From Chitinophagales bacterium (lineage in GTDB: Bacteria > Bacteroidota > Bacteroidia > Chitinophagales > CAIOSU01): DNA of 64,000 bases. The notes under the pieces were generated by a model, which was not told the origin of the DNA, did no database searches, and saw only the letters and a program-made list of their open reading frames with translations. This document shows, in pieces, positions 1,606-10,173 of this stretch (positions are counted from its first letter, which is position 1; each line of letters starts with the position of its first letter). The stretch is from assembly GCA_026003335.1 (NCBI GenBank), contig BPHB01000002.1, positions 1,045,363 to 1,109,362 on the forward strand, in the 5' to 3' direction. Made by a program: the position numbers and the translations under genes.

Positions 1606-2835
1606 ATGTCACTAAAAAAACAACCGAATATCCTCGTGCTGGGTGCCGGGATGGTGGGCAGCGCCATTGCCCTTGACCTGGCTGAAACGTATCCGGTCAC
1701 AGCCGCTGACATCAGTGCTTCTGCGCTGGCTCCGTTAAAAGGACGTATAAAGACCCTGCGCTGTGACCTGTCCGATAGAACATGGTTAAAAAAGCTGGCT
1801 GCAAAATATGAGCTGGTCATCGGAGCCGTTCCCGGACATATGGGTTTTAAAACCGCGCGAACAGTGATTGAAGCCGGTCGTCCCCTGGTTGATATTTCTT
1901 TTTTTCCTGAAGATGCTTTTTTGCTTAACCGCCTTGCTGAGGCTCGGGGAGTTACTGCAATCGTGGATTGTGGCATAGCTCCCGGTTTCAGCAACATGAT
2001 TGCAGGGTATCACCATCAGCTGATGTGTATAACCAGCTTCACTTGCTATGTGGGAGGCATCCCCAAAAATCCGGAGCCCCCGTTTTACTACAAAGCACCT
2101 TTTTCCCCGATAGATGTAATAGAAGAATATACACGTCCGGCAAGGCTGATGGTAGATTCGGTGGAGGTAATTAAAGAACCCCTCACCGATGTGGAAACAC
2201 TGTATTTTAAAAACATAGGACACCTGGAAGCATTTAATACCGATGGACTGCGTACGCTGCTGCAGACGGTCAGCATTCCGAACATGAAGGAAAAAACCTT
2301 ACGCTACCCCGGGCATGCTGAGAAAATACAGTTATTGCGCAAAGCAGGTTTTTTTTCCCAAACCCCAGTGATGGTAAACGGAAAAAAAATTACTCCCTTT
2401 GACATGACAGCAGCCTTACTTTTTCCGCTATGGAAGCTGAAGCCGGGCGAGCCCGAATACACTCTCATGCGCATCGTCCTGCATGGTCATGAAAACGGCC
2501 AACAGGTGGAATATCGGTATGCATTGTTTGATACGTATGATGAAAAAACAGGCATTACTTCTATGGCGCGCACTACCGGTTATACCTGCACAGCCGTTGC
2601 TCGTCTGGTAGCTGAAGGCATCTATACACAACCGGGGATATCCCCTCCCGAATATGTGGGCGCCCGAAGTATTTGTTTTGACTACATTTTGCGCTACCTT
2701 AAAACAAAGGGCATTCGCATAACCCGAAAAAAGAAAGTTATCAAAGAAGCTACACCTCCTCAAACCTCACCCGGCTCACCATATACCAGAAGCGCGTCAG
2801 CAGCAATAAAGCCGCTGCGGACAGGCCGAAAATGA
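1606..2835 (+). CDS. Saccharopine dehydrogenase-like NAD(P)-binding oxidoreductase
   Basis: The N-terminus is a Rossmann fold with GAGMVG at residues 13 to 18, followed by the saccharopine dehydrogenase NADP-binding pattern (VDCGIAPGFSN near 125) and the C-terminal substrate domain (residues 130 to 370). The family includes saccharopine reductase/dehydrogenase and lysine 6-dehydrogenase, so a role in lysine or a related amino acid is likely but the substrate is not proven. The ATG at 1606 is preferred over an upstream in-frame TTG at 1591, because the Rossmann strand starts a few residues later. The last 86 bases overlap the 3' end of the convergent MATE gene, and the basic, low-complexity tail after about residue 370 is probably not conserved. 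Confidence 0.8.
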   Translation: MSLKKQPNILVLGAGMVGSAIALDLAETYPVTAADISASALAPLKGRIKTLRCDLSDRTWLKKLAAKYELVIGAVPGHMGFKTARTVIEAGRPLVDISFFPEDAFLLNRLAEARGVTAIVDCGIAPGFSNMIAGYHHQLMCITSFTCYVGGIPKNPEPPFYYKAPFSPIDVIEEYTRPARLMVDSVEVIKEPLTDVETLYFKNIGHLEAFNTDGLRTLLQTVSIPNMKEKTLRYPGHAEKIQLLRKAGFFSQTPVMVNGKKITPFDMTAALLFPLWKLKPGEPEYTLMRIVLHGHENGQQVEYRYALFDTYDEKTGITSMARTTGYTCTAVARLVAEGIYTQPGISPPEYVGARSICFDYILRYLKTKGIRITRKKKVIKEATPPQTSPGSPYTRSASAAIKPLRTGRK

Positions 2836-4132
2836 ATCCTACCCATATGCCGGTCAATCCCATCTCCCAGCGGAAAGCCAGCAGATAGCAGGCCGGAATC
2901 ATGATTCCCCAGTATGAAACCAGGGCTATGCACATAGGTATTTTCACATCCTGAATGCCCCGCAGGGCGCCTACTGCTGCAGCTTGCAACCCATCACTGA
3001 CCTGAAAAAATGCCGCGAGCAGAATCATGTTGGAGGCAAGCATGATCACTTCCGTATCGCGGGTATACAGTAAGGGCAGCCTGTCGCGAAAAACAATAAA
3101 TATCAAAGCAAACACCAGCTCCACAAAAATGGTCATCACAAATACCGTAGTGCCGGCCATTTTGATTTCATTTCTGTTTCGGGCGCCATAGGCATATCCG
3201 GTAAGTATGCTTCCGGCAGCCGATAACCCGCCCAGAATCATAAACGTGATGGATGCCAGTCCTATGGCAATACCATGAGCCGAAAGCTCTCTTACGCCAA
3301 TCCAGCCGCTCATGAAATGGGCAATCTGGAAAGCCGCCACTTCAAAAAAGAATTGCAGCCCCGAAGGAATACCCAGTTTGAGTACGGGGCGCACGTAACT
3401 TTTCTTCTCAAGGCGGTGTTGCTGCCGGGCGGCCTCCTTTCCCAGGAGCCCTATGCTGCGGTCAAAAGAGATATAAGCCAGAAAAGCGCTCATCATGAAA
3501 GCCCGCGTTATGGTAGTAGCCAGAGCCGCCCCGTGCACTTCCAACCGCGGCATACCCAGATTGCCGTAGATCAAAACCCAGTTGAGGAACACATTGACCA
3601 CCAGTCCGGCCAGGGTAATATACATGCCCACAGTGGTGCGTCCCAGCCCATCTACAAACTGCTTGCACACAGTAAAAACATACATAAACAGAATGGATGG
3701 CAGCAGCACCCACAGGTAGCGCAGGGCAATATCATTGACCACCTGTGCCTGCCTGAAGACATCAATAAACTGCATGCAGGCGACCGTAACTACCATGAAC
3801 ACCCCGGAGAGGATAAGGGCGATGTGCATGCCGGACTGATAAATGGCTATGGCTTTCCATTCCTGATTTTCTCCTTTGGCTTCGGAAACCAAGGTAGAAA
3901 CGGAGAAGAGAATTCCTATACCAAACAGGTTTATCAGCCAAAATACATTATGGCCAAAGCCGGAGCCGGCAATGTACTCATGCCCAAGCCCACCTATTTG
4001 CACCGTGTCAAAAAAGCCCATTAGAATCATCCCCACCTGGCCGGCAATAATGGGAATAGCCAGCCGGAGCGTTTCCTGCATTTTGGATAGATAGGCTGAC
4101 AGACTGGGCGCAGCGGAAGTGGACATAACCAT
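2750..4132 (-). CDS. MATE family multidrug/cation antiporter
   Basis: This is a polytopic inner-membrane exporter of about 460 residues, the usual size for MATE proteins. It should have 12 membrane helices arranged as two pseudo-symmetric six-helix halves. The N-terminal half starts LRLAIPIIAGQVGMILMGF and contains the typical MATE helix-1 glycines, and the second half repeats the pattern (VLKLGIPSGLQFFFEV). Such proteins export cationic drugs or metabolites in exchange for Na+ or H+. An ATG at 4132 is chosen because the frame further upstream would add about 69 hydrophilic residues and run into the neighbouring gene; ATG 4126 is equally possible. It is the last gene of the MoxR-HACD-MATE run. 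Confidence 0.88.
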   Translation of the reverse strand: MVMSTSAAPSLSAYLSKMQETLRLAIPIIAGQVGMILMGFFDTVQIGGLGHEYIAGSGFGHNVFWLINLFGIGILFSVSTLVSEAKGENQEWKAIAIYQSGMHIALILSGVFMVVTVACMQFIDVFRQAQVVNDIALRYLWVLLPSILFMYVFTVCKQFVDGLGRTTVGMYITLAGLVVNVFLNWVLIYGNLGMPRLEVHGAALATTITRAFMMSAFLAYISFDRSIGLLGKEAARQQHRLEKKSYVRPVLKLGIPSGLQFFFEVAAFQIAHFMSGWIGVRELSAHGIAIGLASITFMILGGLSAAGSILTGYAYGARNRNEIKMAGTTVFVMTIFVELVFALIFIVFRDRLPLLYTRDTEVIMLASNMILLAAFFQVSDGLQAAAVGALRGIQDVKIPMCIALVSYWGIMIPACYLLAFRWEMGLTGIWVGFIFGLSAAALLLLTRFWYMVSRVRFEEV

Positions 4133-4179: not shown

Positions 4180-4773
4180 TCAGGAAGCGGACTGTAGCTT
4201 CTTTTTGCGCTGTCCCCACATGTAGAGGTATAGGCGGGGAAAGAACGGCAGGTAGGAAAGCATCACCAGGATGATTAAGCCGTTTATGACACCCACTTCC
4301 CACTGCGTAAGGCGCAAATATGAAAGCAAAATCATCCACTCGCCCGTTACCCCTACCGGATAAAGAACAATAAACAAGGTGTAGCGCAAGTAGGTAAGCA
4401 CATGAATATCCTTCCCCAGCAGCGAGATAAAATAAAAACTATACCGCACCACTTCGGTAACGGACCATGCCAGTGCAATCAGTGAGATGCCGTTCAGCCC
4501 CCACAGGGTGAGCATGTGTTGCTCCGGAAGAATATTGATAAACACCAGGACAAATATCCTTGAAAACACTTGCATGCCGGCAGCCGATACCGGAGTGTTT
4601 ACCCATTTTAGCCAGGCATGCATGATTTCCAGTACCGCTGCCACCTGGCAGATGTTTAGCACCGTAAGGGAAGCGGCATCCAGACGTCCCTTGTTGGCGA
4701 TAAATAACCCCAGAAAAATGCACCAGCCAACGGCAAGAGTGAGGTTATAGGCAATGAGGTATTTTTTTATCAT
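4180..4773 (-). CDS. HACD/PTPLA-type 3-hydroxyacyl-CoA dehydratase, eukaryote-like
   Basis: The protein has 197 residues, is almost wholly membrane-embedded (about six helices) and resembles the eukaryotic very-long-chain 3-hydroxyacyl-CoA dehydratases (yeast Phs1, human HACD1-4). Family hallmarks are all present: LEIMHAWLKWV (48 to 58), QVFSR (68 to 72), EVVRYSFY (107 to 114) and RYTLFIVLYPVGVTGE (130 to 145). The last contains the Tyr and Glu, seven residues apart, that are catalytic in Phs1 (here Y138 and E145). The C-terminal stretch SYLPFFPRLYLYM matches the last helix of HACDs, and a basic tail follows. The known reaction is dehydration of 3-hydroxyacyl-CoA to trans-2-enoyl-CoA in fatty acid elongation. 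The bacterial substrate is unknown. It lies 14 bp after moxR. Confidence 0.85.
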   Translation of the reverse strand: MIKKYLIAYNLTLAVGWCIFLGLFIANKGRLDAASLTVLNICQVAAVLEIMHAWLKWVNTPVSAAGMQVFSRIFVLVFINILPEQHMLTLWGLNGISLIALAWSVTEVVRYSFYFISLLGKDIHVLTYLRYTLFIVLYPVGVTGEWMILLSYLRLTQWEVGVINGLIILVMLSYLPFFPRLYLYMWGQRKKKLQSAS

Positions 4774-4787
4774 ACCCGGCAGCTGCT

Positions 4788-5753
4788 TCAGAACAGTTTC
4801 CTGAAGATGTCATCTACACTGATTCCTTCTGCTTCGGCTTTATAATTCTTCACCACGCGATGCCGCAGGATGGGTAGCGCCACTGCCTGTACGTCTTCAA
4901 TATCGGGGGAGTATTTACCATGAATAGCGGCATGGCATTTTGCACCCAGCACAAGATACTGAGATGCCCGGGGTCCTGCGCCCCAGGTTAAGTAGTTGTT
5001 TACAAAATCTGTTGCCTTGGGAGTGTGAGGCCGGGTTTTTGCCGCCAGCGTAACGGCATACTCCAATACATTATCCGCTACCGGAATTTTACGAATGAGC
5101 TTTTGGAAATCAAGGATATCCCTTGCATGCATACATTTGTTTACAGTGGACTCTCTCAGGGAAGTGGTGTTTTTGACTATCTCCAGCTCCTCTTCAAACT
5201 TTGGATAATCCACCACAATGTTGAACATGAAGCGGTCCAGCTGAGCTTCCGGAAGCGGATAAGTGCCTTCCTGTTCTATTGGATTTTGGGTAGCCAGCAC
5301 AAAGAAAGGCAGGTCAAGCTTGTGGGTGGTTCCTCCTGCTGTAACCGAGCGTTCCTGCATGGCCTCCAGCAGGGCTGCCTGCGTTTTTGGGGGGGTACGG
5401 TTTATCTCGTCTGCCAATACAATATTGGCGAAAATGGGGCCCCGGTTAAAGCGGAACTGGCGGTGTTCGTCCAGCACCTCGGCCCCGGTGATATCCGAGG
5501 GCATCAGGTCGGGTGTAAATTGTATCCGCTTGAAGCTAAGCTCAAGGGCCTGGGCAATGGTACTCACCAAAAGTGTTTTTGCCAGCCCCGGGACGCCCAC
5601 CAGCAGGCTATGACCATCGCAGAAAATGGATATGATTACGGTTTCAATGACCTTTTCCTGCCCTACAATGACCTTGGCAATCTCTTTTGTGAGTTTTTTA
5701 TAAGTCTCAGCCAGGGCATCTACGGCTTCCACGTCTGAAGAAAATTTATTCAT
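4788..5753 (-). CDS. MoxR-family AAA+ ATPase
   Basis: MoxR ATPases are chaperone-like AAA+ proteins that activate or assemble partner proteins, often ones with von Willebrand domains. The protein has 321 residues. Walker A is GVPGLAKT (53 to 60), Walker B is VLADEINR, the sensor 1 stretch is FVLATQNPIEQEGTYPLPEA, and the C-terminal lid closes the protein. The ATG at 5753 is preferred; the codon before it is an in-frame GTG. The DUF58 and VWA (BatA-type) genes that normally follow moxR are absent here, and an HACD-like gene follows instead. The PpiC foldase upstream matches a frequent Bacteroidota arrangement. Confidence 0.93.
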   Translation of the reverse strand: MNKFSSDVEAVDALAETYKKLTKEIAKVIVGQEKVIETVIISIFCDGHSLLVGVPGLAKTLLVSTIAQALELSFKRIQFTPDLMPSDITGAEVLDEHRQFRFNRGPIFANIVLADEINRTPPKTQAALLEAMQERSVTAGGTTHKLDLPFFVLATQNPIEQEGTYPLPEAQLDRFMFNIVVDYPKFEEELEIVKNTTSLRESTVNKCMHARDILDFQKLIRKIPVADNVLEYAVTLAAKTRPHTPKATDFVNNYLTWGAGPRASQYLVLGAKCHAAIHGKYSPDIEDVQAVALPILRHRVVKNYKAEAEGISVDDIFRKLF

Positions 5754-5824
5754 CACAGATGTTTTTAATCAGGCAAAACTAAGGTTTATGTACGGCAAAA
5801 AAGGAGCACCCCAGACCTCTGTTG

Positions 5825-7210
5825 TCAGTGATAGGTTTTTATTAATCCCTGTTGTTCATCTTTGCTTGTCCACTTCAGGAGCCAGTCACAACGGGCATAT
5901 TCATCAGCGATATGCACGTATATCTCTTTGGCTTTTTCACTCAGCCACTGGTTAAAAATGCGTTCCTTTTTCTGCTGTTCGGCCGCAGCCTGAATGCGGG
6001 AGTAGTCTTCTTTGAGATTGGCTTTATGCGGCCTGGTTTCTGATTTCAGATACATAATCCGATAGGCCTGCGTGCCTTCCGGGGTTTGAAATAGTTGCGG
6101 TTCGGAAAGCTCCCCGGGAGAAAGTTTTTCTATGGCAAAGTAATCTTCTTTGTTCAACTGATCTATTTCAAAATAGGTGTTTCCGGTAACAGGGTTTATG
6201 AGCATGCCTCCGGTATTTTTTGTTGCTTCGTCATCAGAAAATCGCGCAACAGCTTCTTCAAAAGTCAGCTGCCGGGCGATAATCAACGCGCGCACCGAGT
6301 CCAGCTTGGCACGGGCCTGAGCCAGATCGGCAGAGGTGGTTTTGGGACGAATGAGGATATGCCGCACTTTGATGCGGTTGCCCCGTTTTTCCAGTGCCTG
6401 AATGATGTGAAACCCGAATTGGGTTTCGGTAACTTCCGAAATCTCGTTGGGCTGCAGCCGGAAGGCAGCCCCTTCAAATTCAGGCACCATTTCTCCGCGC
6501 CTGATGAATCCAAGATTGCCGCAGTCATTAGCCGAGCCGGGGTCTTCGGAATAGATCTGTACCAACAGGCAAAACTCTTCCCCATTAAGAATACGTTGCC
6601 GGATTTCTTCGGCTTTTTGCCGGGCATATTCTTTTAACTCGGGATTTACAGTGGGCACTATTACAAGCTGACCCACTTCAACCTCGGCATTGAAGAACGG
6701 CAGGCTGTCTTCGGGAATGCTGTTAAAAAACTGCTTGACTTCAGCTGGGGTTATTTTTACTTCGCCCAACACCTGGTTGCGCATTTTATTGGCCAGTAGC
6801 TGTTCTTCTACATCGGTGCGAAATTCATCTTTTATCTGCAGGATGGATTTGCCATAGTATTCTTCCAGGCGTTCCTCGGAGCCTATCATGTTTACAAAGT
6901 AGCGTATGCGTTTATTCAGCTCCTCTTCTACTTCCTCCTCAGATACCGTTACACTGTCCATGGCGGCCTGCATGACCAGTAGTTTCTGCGCCAGCATTTG
7001 TTCCAGCAGGGCACATTTATATTCTGGCGGCACGCTGGCTCCTTCCAGCAGGGCCTGCTGATATTGTGTTTCTATGTCAGAGTGTAGAATGATTTTATCT
7101 CCAACGATGGCGGCAATGCCATCAATCAATACTCTCTGCTCCTGGGCCATACTATAGGTCACGGCCGCAACAGCAAAAAACGCACAGAAGAAAAGCATTC
7201 TCATCATCAT
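5825..7210 (-). CDS. SurA-like periplasmic peptidyl-prolyl isomerase (two PpiC domains)
   Basis: This is a secreted foldase of 461 residues. A signal peptide (about residues 1 to 23, cleaved near SMA-Q) precedes a SurA N-terminal chaperone region (about 25 to 160), then two parvulin domains. The first contains YSEDPGSANDCGNLGFIRRGEMV and FGFHIIQ, and the second starts VRHILIRP. SurA-type proteins escort outer-membrane proteins through the periplasm, which fits an organism rich in TonB receptors. The ATG at 7210 is preferred over a TTG at 7216. The gene ends the foldase triad and lies 71 bp before moxR. Confidence 0.9.
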   Translation of the reverse strand: MMMRMLFFCAFFAVAAVTYSMAQEQRVLIDGIAAIVGDKIILHSDIETQYQQALLEGASVPPEYKCALLEQMLAQKLLVMQAAMDSVTVSEEEVEEELNKRIRYFVNMIGSEERLEEYYGKSILQIKDEFRTDVEEQLLANKMRNQVLGEVKITPAEVKQFFNSIPEDSLPFFNAEVEVGQLVIVPTVNPELKEYARQKAEEIRQRILNGEEFCLLVQIYSEDPGSANDCGNLGFIRRGEMVPEFEGAAFRLQPNEISEVTETQFGFHIIQALEKRGNRIKVRHILIRPKTTSADLAQARAKLDSVRALIIARQLTFEEAVARFSDDEATKNTGGMLINPVTGNTYFEIDQLNKEDYFAIEKLSPGELSEPQLFQTPEGTQAYRIMYLKSETRPHKANLKEDYSRIQAAAEQQKKERIFNQWLSEKAKEIYVHIADEYARCDWLLKWTSKDEQQGLIKTYH

Positions 7211-7227
7211 GGGCAAATTAGTCTGCT

Positions 7228-8075
7228 TCAGGGATATATTTCAAACTCTTTGTTGAGTAGAGCTTCCTGATAAATGGTTTCATATGTAGAGCGCAGCAGG
7301 CGCATCTTACGGTTGTTCATCAAAATGCGGGTAATATCCGTTTTAACATAGTCTAAAGGCGCAATTTCACCTCCACTCTTGTAGTCATTCACTTTCAACA
7401 CATAAAAGTAAGCTGAGTCCGACAAGACAGCAGGCGTGCGGCTGCGGTAGAAGGCTGCTAGCTGGTCTTTGCTCACAGGGAAGCTGCTGCTGAGTATATC
7501 TGTTTCATACCAGGTAGAATCTGAAAAAGAAAAGTCTGTGGCATACTGATAACAATAATCACGCAGCAGCAGCTGGTGTTGCTCCTGCTTAGATGAAAAC
7601 CAATAGGCGAGCGAGTCCAGCTTGGGCGATTCAATCGGAGTTTTCACAAAGTGTATCTGCACTATATCCTTATCCAGTTTAAAATTAAGAGTATACTGCT
7701 CGTAGTATTCCTTTAACTCTTCAGGCGATATTATAGTATCTGTTTTCTGGAGAATGAGTTCTTGTTCATAAGCATAGAGGATCAGGGATTCGCGATAGTC
7801 ATTGACTTGCCTTTCTACATTTAGCTTTATCGGGAGGCAAGTACTCGCTGGGCTTTTTGAATCATGAGTTTGCGTTTCACCCAGTCCTTCACATATTGTC
7901 GCATAATTTCTGCGCTATCGGCTTTGCCGCCCAAGCTTTTTGCCACGGGGTCTATTTCATCATAGTAAAGGATATGGTTGCCCACCTTAGCCACAGGGCG
8001 CCCCTTTATCTCTTTGTTTTCAAAATACTTGCATGAAGTAGTAAGCAGCAGAAGGGTAAGTATAATAGTATACAT
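7228..8075 (-). pseudogene. PpiC/SurA-like lipoprotein, frameshifted into two ORFs
   Basis: Two ORFs make up one gene. The 5' part (ATG at 8075) encodes a lipoprotein signal with lipobox LTTSC, then a SurA-like N-terminus (VAKVGNHILYYDEID). It stops at 7827 after VLASR. The 3' part is open in another frame from about 7840 to 7228 and begins LNVERQVNDYRESLILYAYE, a direct continuation of the same foldase fold. One extra C in the CCC run near 7832 to 7834 would give LASPIKLNVERQ and restore a protein of about 282 residues, typical of this Bacteroidota family. It sits between two intact PpiC foldases in one operon. It is either a sequence error or a recent mutation; nothing suggests programmed shifting. 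Confidence 0.75.
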
Positions 8076-8193
8076 CCGGTTCAAGGAAGAGAATGTCCCT
8101 TGTATGTAAACGTGCGACTGACTCAGGAGCATTCAGGGGCTTGTTGTATGAGGGTTCTGTGTTGTGCTCATGCGGTTTTTTGCCGCTGAGGCA

Positions 8194-10173
8194 TTAGTTT
8201 TTTCGTATAAGTCGTTCCAGCACTTCGTAGTTGATTTTTACCGGATATTTTTCCCTCAGCTCGGCTATCCATTGTTTTTCCAGATATTCCTGATAATCAG
8301 ATATGATAAATCCTCTTGCTTCTTCCAGTGACTTAGGTGTAGGAGGAATAACTTTTCTTACATGCACAAAGGAGATGGTGCTGTCGGCATTTATAAAGTC
8401 AGGTGACAGGCCTTGCTTCCACTCCACTTTATCAATGAGTGGATGCTGGCCTTTTTCAAAAATGCCCTGCTGGGCTGACAAAACGGGGTGGAGCGTGTCT
8501 TTAGCGTTTACTTTATTGAGGATGGCCTGCACATCCAGTTTGCTTTTAGCAGCAAGCTTGCGGGCTGTTTTGGCTGCCTTTTGATTTTTGGCTGTATAAA
8601 TCACGGCATCCAAACGTTGGTCCCACATGTAGTTGTATTTGTGTTGTTCGTGGAATGCGCGGAGACCTGCCGTATCCTGAAGCGCTTTAGTCCATACCTT
8701 TTGATCAGTGAGGGCAAACAGTAACGTGCCATCATGGTATTCCTGCATCAGGGCTTTGAATTCGGGATAGCGTGCTTCCAGCTGGCTGTCCTGGTATTTG
8801 AGACATGCATCTTCTACAAACTTTTCATAAATGTCGGAAAATATTTCATAGGCAGTTTTATTGCGCGGATGACCTTTCTGGTTTTCAGCAAATATGGCAA
8901 AGTCAGCCTGTGTATATTTTCTTGCTGCAAGTTCAAAAAGGGGCTTGGTGAGCTTCTCTTTATCGGGAATAGTTATTTTGCCTGATGTAGTATTGATTTC
9001 ACTTTGAATTTTTTCAAAGAGCTCCTCTTTGTTTTTAGGATATTCTTTAAACCCGTTTTCTTTTTTTATGCGGTCTACAAGCACTTTTTGAGCGAGCTCG
9101 GAGCGAGAGTCTCGTTCAATTTTTTTACGCAGTTCTACTTTAGCTTCTTCGTAAGGAGGTATTCCTGTTTTGCTGATGCGTTTAATGATGTGCCAGCCAT
9201 ATTTTGTACGCACGGGCTGGGAAATGTCTCCATCCTTCTGGAGGGCAAATGCAGCTTTTTCAAATTCCAGCACCATTTTACCCGTACCGAATTCAGGCAA
9301 CACTCCACCTTTGCCGGCTGAGAGTTTGTCTTCGGAAAACTTCCTGGCCAGTTCTTCAAAAGACTCTCCTTCCTGAAGACGCTGGTAAATATCTTCTGCT
9401 TTTTTGCGGGCTTCTTGTTCCTGCTGTTCGGTAGCATTATCAGGCACCTTAATCAGAATGTGGGCTACGGTGATCTTGCCCTGAGCCGGACGCTTATCGG
9501 TAACTTTGATGAGATGATAGCCAAATCGGGTGCGCACCGGAAGGGAAATCTCGCCCACCTTGGTGTTATAAGCTGCCGTTTCAAATGGGTAGACGGTCTG
9601 CAGCACGGAGAAGTAGCCAATGTCACCCCCGTTTTCTTTGGCTGAAGGGTCGGCTGATACTTCCCTTGCCAGCTTTTCAAAGTCTTCTCCATTAAGGATA
9701 CGCTTTCTGTAATCAAGCGCCTTTCTGTAGGCCTTCAGGGTGTCGGAGGGAAGGCCTTCGCCTTCTATGCGGAAAAGAATGTGGCTGGCTCTTACTTCTG
9801 TTTTCATTCTTTCGTAGGCCTCCTGCAGAAGCTGCTCGGTTACTTCACGGTCCTGCATGTAGGATTTTGCCAGTTGCGTGCGATAGCCGGCCAGTTCTTC
9901 CTGAATGGATTTGAGGGTATCCATGCCCAGAGCTTCGGCTTCTTTTACTTTTAGCCTGAAGTTGATGTAGAGCTGCAGATATTCCTCCAGCGACTGGCGC
10001 GTATAGGCGTTCTCATCGTTGATGTTATTCTTCTTATACACGTATTCAAATTCAGAGAGCCTCACGGCTTGGTCTCCGAAAGTAAACAGTATGGGGTCGG
10101 AAGAGTCGTTTTGAGCAATAAGACTCAGAGGTAACCCTACCAGCCAGATAAAAACAGAAAATAGCCTAGGCAT
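8194..10173 (-). CDS. Periplasmic peptidyl-prolyl cis-trans isomerase with two parvulin domains
   Basis: The protein has 659 residues, with a signal peptide (1 to 20, ending SLIAQ) and a SurA-like N-terminal chaperone region. Two PpiC domains are clear: one starting RASHILFRI and containing GGDIGYFSV and FGYHLIKVTDKRP, and one starting VAHILIKVPD and containing GKGGVLPEFGTGKMV and YGWHIIKR. A long C-terminal region of about 300 residues follows; it has no motif I can name. The likely role is folding of outer-membrane or T9SS-exported proteins. It is the first gene of the foldase-MoxR run, and a TATTTTTG promoter element lies 53 bp upstream. Confidence 0.9.
   Translation of the reverse strand: MPRLFSVFIWLVGLPLSLIAQNDSSDPILFTFGDQAVRLSEFEYVYKKNNINDENAYTRQSLEEYLQLYINFRLKVKEAEALGMDTLKSIQEELAGYRTQLAKSYMQDREVTEQLLQEAYERMKTEVRASHILFRIEGEGLPSDTLKAYRKALDYRKRILNGEDFEKLAREVSADPSAKENGGDIGYFSVLQTVYPFETAAYNTKVGEISLPVRTRFGYHLIKVTDKRPAQGKITVAHILIKVPDNATEQQEQEARKKAEDIYQRLQEGESFEELARKFSEDKLSAGKGGVLPEFGTGKMVLEFEKAAFALQKDGDISQPVRTKYGWHIIKRISKTGIPPYEEAKVELRKKIERDSRSELAQKVLVDRIKKENGFKEYPKNKEELFEKIQSEINTTSGKITIPDKEKLTKPLFELAARKYTQADFAIFAENQKGHPRNKTAYEIFSDIYEKFVEDACLKYQDSQLEARYPEFKALMQEYHDGTLLFALTDQKVWTKALQDTAGLRAFHEQHKYNYMWDQRLDAVIYTAKNQKAAKTARKLAAKSKLDVQAILNKVNAKDTLHPVLSAQQGIFEKGQHPLIDKVEWKQGLSPDFINADSTISFVHVRKVIPPTPKSLEEARGFIISDYQEYLEKQWIAELREKYPVKINYEVLERLIRKN

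Follow-up and report, generated by a model that had tools for sequence, protein, structure and literature searches.

What is a gene for a eukaryote-type dehydratase of the PTPLA/HACD family doing behind moxR in a bacterium of the order Chitinophagales? The window, i.e., the whole stretch of 64,000 nucleotides that was analysed, holds one such gene (Table 1), which begins with ATG and is read from the minus strand, a detail absent from the preliminary description of the locus. Its product has a single Pfam match, PF04387 (PTPLA; 134.1 bits against a cut-off of 27; E value 4.5e-39), with residues 43–194 aligned to positions 1–161 of the 162 in the model, while no NCBIfam model was found for the protein. 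The only sequence relative in the PDB, with the single sequence as query, is HPO-8 from C. elegans (E value 1.5e-29), which is annotated there as a very-long-chain (3R)-3-hydroxyacyl-CoA dehydratase and which scores 156 bits against a profile of 26 bacterial homologues. The gene is present in a single copy in the 3.9-Mb genome. It lies inside a 1.12-Mb contig with genes of bacterial operons on both sides, which excludes a stray eukaryotic contig, and its GC content (0.485) and GC3 (0.611) are near the values of the neighbouring genes. Based on sequence analysis, the gene is bacterial and genuinely belongs to the PTPLA/HACD family, as the preliminary description had held, and the C-terminal segment named there as a hallmark, SYLPFFPRLYLYM, is found at residues 173–185.

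Table 1. Features of the window around the PTPLA gene (positions in the window).
Feature	Position	Strand	Basis
MATE-family transporter	2750..4132	minus	PF01554 182 bits, TIGR00797 272 bits
PTPLA/HACD protein, 197 aa	4180..4773	minus	PF04387 134.1 bits, AlphaFold2 model and fold matches
LYPVGVTGE codons, catalytic Tyr138 and Glu145	4339..4365	minus	47/47 homologues and HPO-8
moxR AAA+ ATPase	4788..5756	minus	PF07726 214 bits; last gene of the PPIase-SurA-moxR block
SurA/PpiC-type peptidyl-prolyl isomerase genes upstream of moxR	5825..10173	minus	Pfam Rotamase/SurA_N; synteny in 6/6 relatives

The motif LYPVGVTGE occupies residues 137–145 and includes Y138 and E145, the pair seven residues apart that had been singled out as catalytic. 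In the alignment each is retained in all 47 bacterial homologues as well as in HPO-8, and they are the equivalents of Tyr-149 and Glu-156 of yeast Phs1, which are needed for activity according to an excerpt of PMC5008698. Residues R72, R110, R130 and Y131, among others, are likewise invariant in the 47 bacterial sequences. At the 27 window positions conserved in at least 45 of these homologues HPO-8 is identical without exception (27/27), and the resemblance is therefore far above chance. An AlphaFold2 model built from a 26-row alignment (pLDDT 95.1; pTM 0.87) contains six long helices, and the six predicted membrane helices comprise residues 2–26, 33–54, 62–81, 95–118, 124–155 and 162–196. 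The top ten of 999 chains aligned by VIA-align are ELOVL7, TMEM120A/B and yeast ceramide synthase (Z 9.6–11.5; the next entry has a Z of 6.7), with top matches spanning 164–185 residues at 6–13% sequence identity. Foldseek against the PDB gave a best E value of 0.31, with ELOVL7, TMEM120 and ceramide synthase scoring weakly, and the HPO-8 structure (22of) was absent among the fold matches of the model. Passages of PMC11919693 describe a barrel of six helices, which probably suits acyl-CoA, as common to ELOVL7, TMEM120, ceramide synthase and models of HACD, and this acyl-CoA barrel is the predicted fold of the window protein. The best-matching barrels nevertheless perform other chemistry, and the double histidine that the same passages report for ELOVL7 and ceramide synthase differs from the catalytic pair of PTPLA.

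The eukaryotic enzymes, i.e., yeast Phs1, human HACD1–4, plant PAS2 and C. elegans HPO-8, belong to the same Pfam family and have both the Tyr/Glu pair and the predicted six-helix barrel in common with the window protein, which differs in being bacterial, in its length of 197 residues, and in that neither an ELO nor a TECR partner was found for it. A HACD-like fold was also encountered in a protein of 544 residues from a giant virus, Yasminevirus (BFVD A0A5K0U8K6; TMq 0.71; 24% identity) whose C-terminal domain is annotated as SRD5A/TECR, and which looks like a TECR-HACD fusion.

HACD had been supposed to be rare in bacteria, and a profile search across Bacteroidota, as proposed in the preliminary description, bears this out. 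PF04387 exceeded the cut-off in two of the seven genomes of the window's family, in 34 of 298 genomes of the order, and in one of 395 genomes drawn across the phylum, the last being the window's own; 14 control genomes outside the phylum gave no match. A genome with 20.5 bits (G036), under the cut-off, was not taken as PTPLA-bearing, and the counts for the 47 loci and for the tree omit another (G180), whose frame is broken near a contig end. When named genomes were scanned with an alignment, 42 PTPLA loci were obtained, all from Bacteroidota by title, a result which does not show absence elsewhere since the scan patterns were built from a Bacteroidota alignment. Of these loci, 28 were already in the order sample, and the 14 extra ones bring the PTPLA genomes known to 48. 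A single-sequence scan of the contigs of named genomes detected no PTPLA locus, and no PTPLA relative was present in the viral contigs, plasmids and phages searched. In the tree, the PTPLA proteins of family f8 form one clade (support 99/97), and most members of two f8 genera carry the gene (15 of 18 in g27 and 6 of 7 in g52). Thus, PTPLA has been inherited and kept, and its distribution in the order is patchy but inherited. HPO-8 is placed beside the window sequence (93/69) on one very long branch, and with no other eukaryote in the alignment the tree does not tell which way the gene was transferred. The bacterial branch might be close to the source of the eukaryotic HACD gene, or might be derived from it.

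The PTPLA family is already known, and its bacterial members presumably carry the Pfam name in sequence databases; searches of the open-licence PMC literature brought up no paper recognisably devoted to a bacterial HACD. The new part is the setting beside beta-oxidation-type genes, which emerged when the genes around PTPLA were clustered across the genomes of the order and the named loci (47 loci). A FabG4-type ketoreductase of 440 residues is encoded directly beside PTPLA in 7 loci, with PTPLA directly upstream, an AMP-binding acyl-CoA ligase in 6, and an acyl-CoA dehydrogenase in 4. At least one of the three directly adjoins PTPLA in 16 of the 47 loci and none does in the other 31, while in G061 a FabG4-type gene is separated from PTPLA by one gene. 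Slots holding one of the three enzymes amount to 17 of 90 when adjacent, 3 of 149 at a distance of 2–3, and 3 of 259 further away; the three families were picked post hoc, after being seen, and the loci are related, so that a Fisher value is no clean probability here. Strict FabG4 matches (E < 1e-29) are found in 10 of the 34 PTPLA genomes and in 11 of the 264 others (Fisher 1.5e-5, likewise post hoc and with relatedness ignored).

The ketoreductase matches the NCBIfam 3-oxoacyl reductase equivalog PRK08261 (458 and 419 bits; cut-off 410), and its closest PDB entries are FabG4-type enzymes, among them 3v1t and 3v1u, the latter being FabG4 of M. tuberculosis with hexanoyl-CoA according to a section of a review (PMC6008564). 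For the dehydrogenase, the nearest NCBIfam model is the Bacillus-type FadE (586 bits, just below the cut-off of 600), and the nearest PDB entries are two bacterial acyl-CoA dehydrogenases and human VLCAD. In G097 the dehydrogenase, PTPLA and ketoreductase genes run into one another, with overlaps of 4 and 8 nt. Regulators of the MarR, TetR or AraC type adjoin several of the acyl-CoA modules. In genus g21, three genomes have PTPLA between marR and fabG4, and in four others it is absent from that position. An AbiEii-type gene and a second small gene are located between the acyl-CoA dehydrogenase gene and marR in three g21 genomes (L043:4453-5942; L119 and L122), the AbiEii assignment being made by Pfam in L043 only. 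The associations with the three enzymes occur in the lineages f12 and f19, in part of f8, and in two named Saprospiraceae loci. At other loci the neighbours are unrelated and include sucA, a GH97 glycosidase gene and a gene of the metallo-beta-lactamase fold. In the Bacteroidota MAGs L066, L067, L069, L070 and L071, PTPLA lies 55–163 bp upstream of sucA (assigned by Pfam in L066), which is followed by a sucB-like gene. The earlier guess of a CoA-based chemistry thus gains from the relatives, where the neighbours of PTPLA are acyl-CoA enzymes; these beta-oxidation-type neighbours also set the bacterial genes apart from eukaryotic HACD.

This setting recalls the mycobacterial FabG4-HtdX pair, in which the ketoreductase FabG4 is found beside a 3-hydroxyacyl-CoA dehydratase and both are active on CoA thioesters, as outlined in part of PMC6008564; the likeness lies in the seven Bacteroidota loci with PTPLA directly upstream of a FabG4-type gene. 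PTPLA differs from HtdX, however, in its unrelated membrane fold, and the window's own genome is without FabG4. A replacement of MaoC/HtdX by PTPLA was considered, HtdX being a member of the hot-dog (MaoC) group, and was rejected: by eye, no recognisable MaoC was seen beside fabG4 in 11 genomes lacking PTPLA (G024, G071, G081, G087, G037, G049, G105 and G002–G005), where the adjacent genes encode MarR, porin-like, ACAD, citrate-synthase-like and other products. MaoC is rarer in genomes with PTPLA (6 of 34, against 160 of 264), a difference which follows clade and was given no weight.

Based on these observations, we propose that PTPLA is, with somewhat better than even confidence, a (3R)-3-hydroxyacyl-CoA dehydratase/enoyl-CoA hydratase which serves beta-oxidation-type metabolism of long acyl-CoAs and not ELO-type elongation. 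The proposal is drawn from the acyl-CoA dehydrogenase, FabG4 and acyl-CoA ligase genes that adjoin PTPLA in relatives, from the profile and PDB matches together with the invariant Y138/E145 and the acyl-CoA-barrel model, and from a classical beta-oxidation operon and seven strong ECH (crotonase) matches in the window's genome. Counted against it are the missing FabG4 module in that genome, the 31 of 47 loci without adjoining enzymes, the ECH-type hydratases already present in all 34 PTPLA genomes, and the lack, by eye, of MaoC in the PTPLA position of FabG4 loci that have no PTPLA. By analogy with the family, Y138 and E145 would remove water from (3R)-3-hydroxyacyl-CoA to give trans-2-enoyl-CoA, or add water in the reverse reaction. 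The linked acyl-CoA dehydrogenase would provide the step on one side of PTPLA, from acyl-CoA to enoyl-CoA, and the FabG4-type reductase the step on the other, from 3-hydroxyacyl-CoA to 3-ketoacyl-CoA, so that the three together would convert acyl-CoA into 3-ketoacyl-CoA or back; the linked acyl-CoA ligase would supply the substrate. PTPLA may also operate in the reverse, biosynthetic direction.

The acyl-CoA dehydrogenase/PTPLA/FabG4 module is missing from the window's genome, since FabG4-type reductases are represented there by weak matches only (best E value 1.9e-7), MaoC by no match, and ACAD by a more distant type only (660 bits, compared with 843–1218 in 24 relatives). The classical operon lies elsewhere in the genome and comprises TetR, FadJ-like, thiolase and ACAD genes (identified by eye, and ACAD by profile). 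Because ECH is present in 34 of 34 PTPLA genomes, a hydratase is not lacking in them. (3R)-3-Hydroxy fatty acids are abundant in the lipids of Bacteroidota. As the window's PTPLA is solitary, with no acyl-CoA module around it and the classical operon elsewhere, we infer that it would convert (3R)-3-hydroxyacyl-CoAs to enoyl-CoA; the former are not substrates of the classical (S)-specific route, whereas the latter is one. In its full form the proposal is more tentative, and we hold it at somewhat short of an even chance: HACD may not be confined to eukaryotic elongation, and in one branch of Bacteroidota it may be a membrane-bound (R)-specific hydratase/dehydratase which either works with a VLCAD-type dehydrogenase and FabG4 in an operon of the beta-oxidation type, or acts as a lone bridge that carries (3R)-3-hydroxy fatty acids into classical beta-oxidation. 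If this is true, bacterial PTPLAs, which have the full catalytic set, are kept in entire clades, and in some cases lie between a dehydrogenase and a ketoreductase, would represent a second use of the fold. They would also be small proteins for work on structure and mechanism, and a new handle on the origin of the eukaryotic elongation machinery.

Among the alternatives, the one that survives best, although we regard it as unlikely, is a eukaryote-like CoA elongation cycle, as suggested in the preliminary description, made up of a condensing enzyme, the FabG4-type ketoreductase and HACD, with enoyl reduction either by an SRD5A/TECR-domain protein or by an acyl-CoA dehydrogenase run in reverse. 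Eukaryotic HACD is an elongation enzyme (PMC5008698, in excerpt), and the ketoreductase FabG4, a crystal structure of which contains a CoA substrate, has been suggested to have a role in elongation (PMC6008564, in part). Moreover, a strong SRD5A/TECR-domain (PF02544) protein is present in 75 of the 298 order genomes, i.e., in 26 of the 34 with PTPLA and 49 of the 264 without. This association was examined as a lead to a TECR partner and rejected, as f8 members lacking PTPLA also carry a strong PF02544 protein, so that its spread follows clade, and the one encoded by the window's genome belongs with SRD5A, with 251 bits to the SRD5A-type 7c83 and 53 bits to 22of_A (TECR). That protein, a homologue of SRD5A-type steroid reductases, is encoded at G000:C1:1193769-1194212 (L136), and the second PF02544 match in the genome is weak (4.8e-8). 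ELO (PF01151) was found in none of the 34 PTPLA genomes, a weak argument given that the control genomes were also silent. No condensing enzyme was seen beside PTPLA, and the dehydrogenase linked to PTPLA belongs to the VLCAD class, which is normally oxidative. An elongation cycle is not supported by these results.

It is improbable, and less credible than elongation, that dehydratase activity was lost or never present and that PTPLA acts instead as a partner in the membrane or in a complex, much like the dehydratase-independent role put forward for an animal HACD. The isolation of the window copy from acyl-CoA modules would fit such a role, and a dehydratase-independent action of HACD2 is claimed in PMC11904967, but the invariance of Y138, E145, R72, R110, R130 and Y131 in 47 of 47 homologues is hard to explain without catalysis.

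The location behind moxR, by comparison, carries little functional information. The end of moxR and the start of PTPLA are 14 nt apart. The open frame of the MATE gene extends to 4339, but the ATG at 4132 is the likelier start, as read from the translation, and would lie 47 nt past the PTPLA stop. No DUF58/VWA genes are located behind moxR in the window by Pfam, their place being taken by PTPLA and MATE. The order PPIase, PPIase, SurA, moxR is the same in all six family relatives, with moxR orthologues 73–77% identical, yet neither PTPLA nor MATE follows moxR in any of the six. There the next genes are variable, as read by eye, and the first of them is on the opposite strand in five. No MATE gene was seen beside PTPLA or moxR among the relatives examined. 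Because the moxR block is kept while the following genes differ, the arrangement in the window is explained as a local event, in which the gene arrived past the last gene of a conserved operon. The moxR-PTPLA link is accidental, and the two genes are neighbours by position only. A functional moxR-PTPLA-MATE operon, in which a MoxR chaperone-linked membrane system would work with an exporter, is thus largely refuted and in our estimate very improbable: the three genes point the same way, are separated by 14 and about 47 nt, and may have a common transcript, but six of six relatives keep the block without PTPLA, and the sister genome, G006, has PTPLA at another location. The operon link to MoxR and a MATE exporter given in the preliminary description therefore has no apparent function. 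In G006 (L046:9291-9848), PTPLA is found 14 nt behind a chalcone-isomerase-like gene (PF16036, 187 bits). Within the moxR block of the window, the PPIase gene at 7228-8132 on the minus strand is represented by two open frames, compared with a single frame of 237–326 aa in that position in the six relatives.
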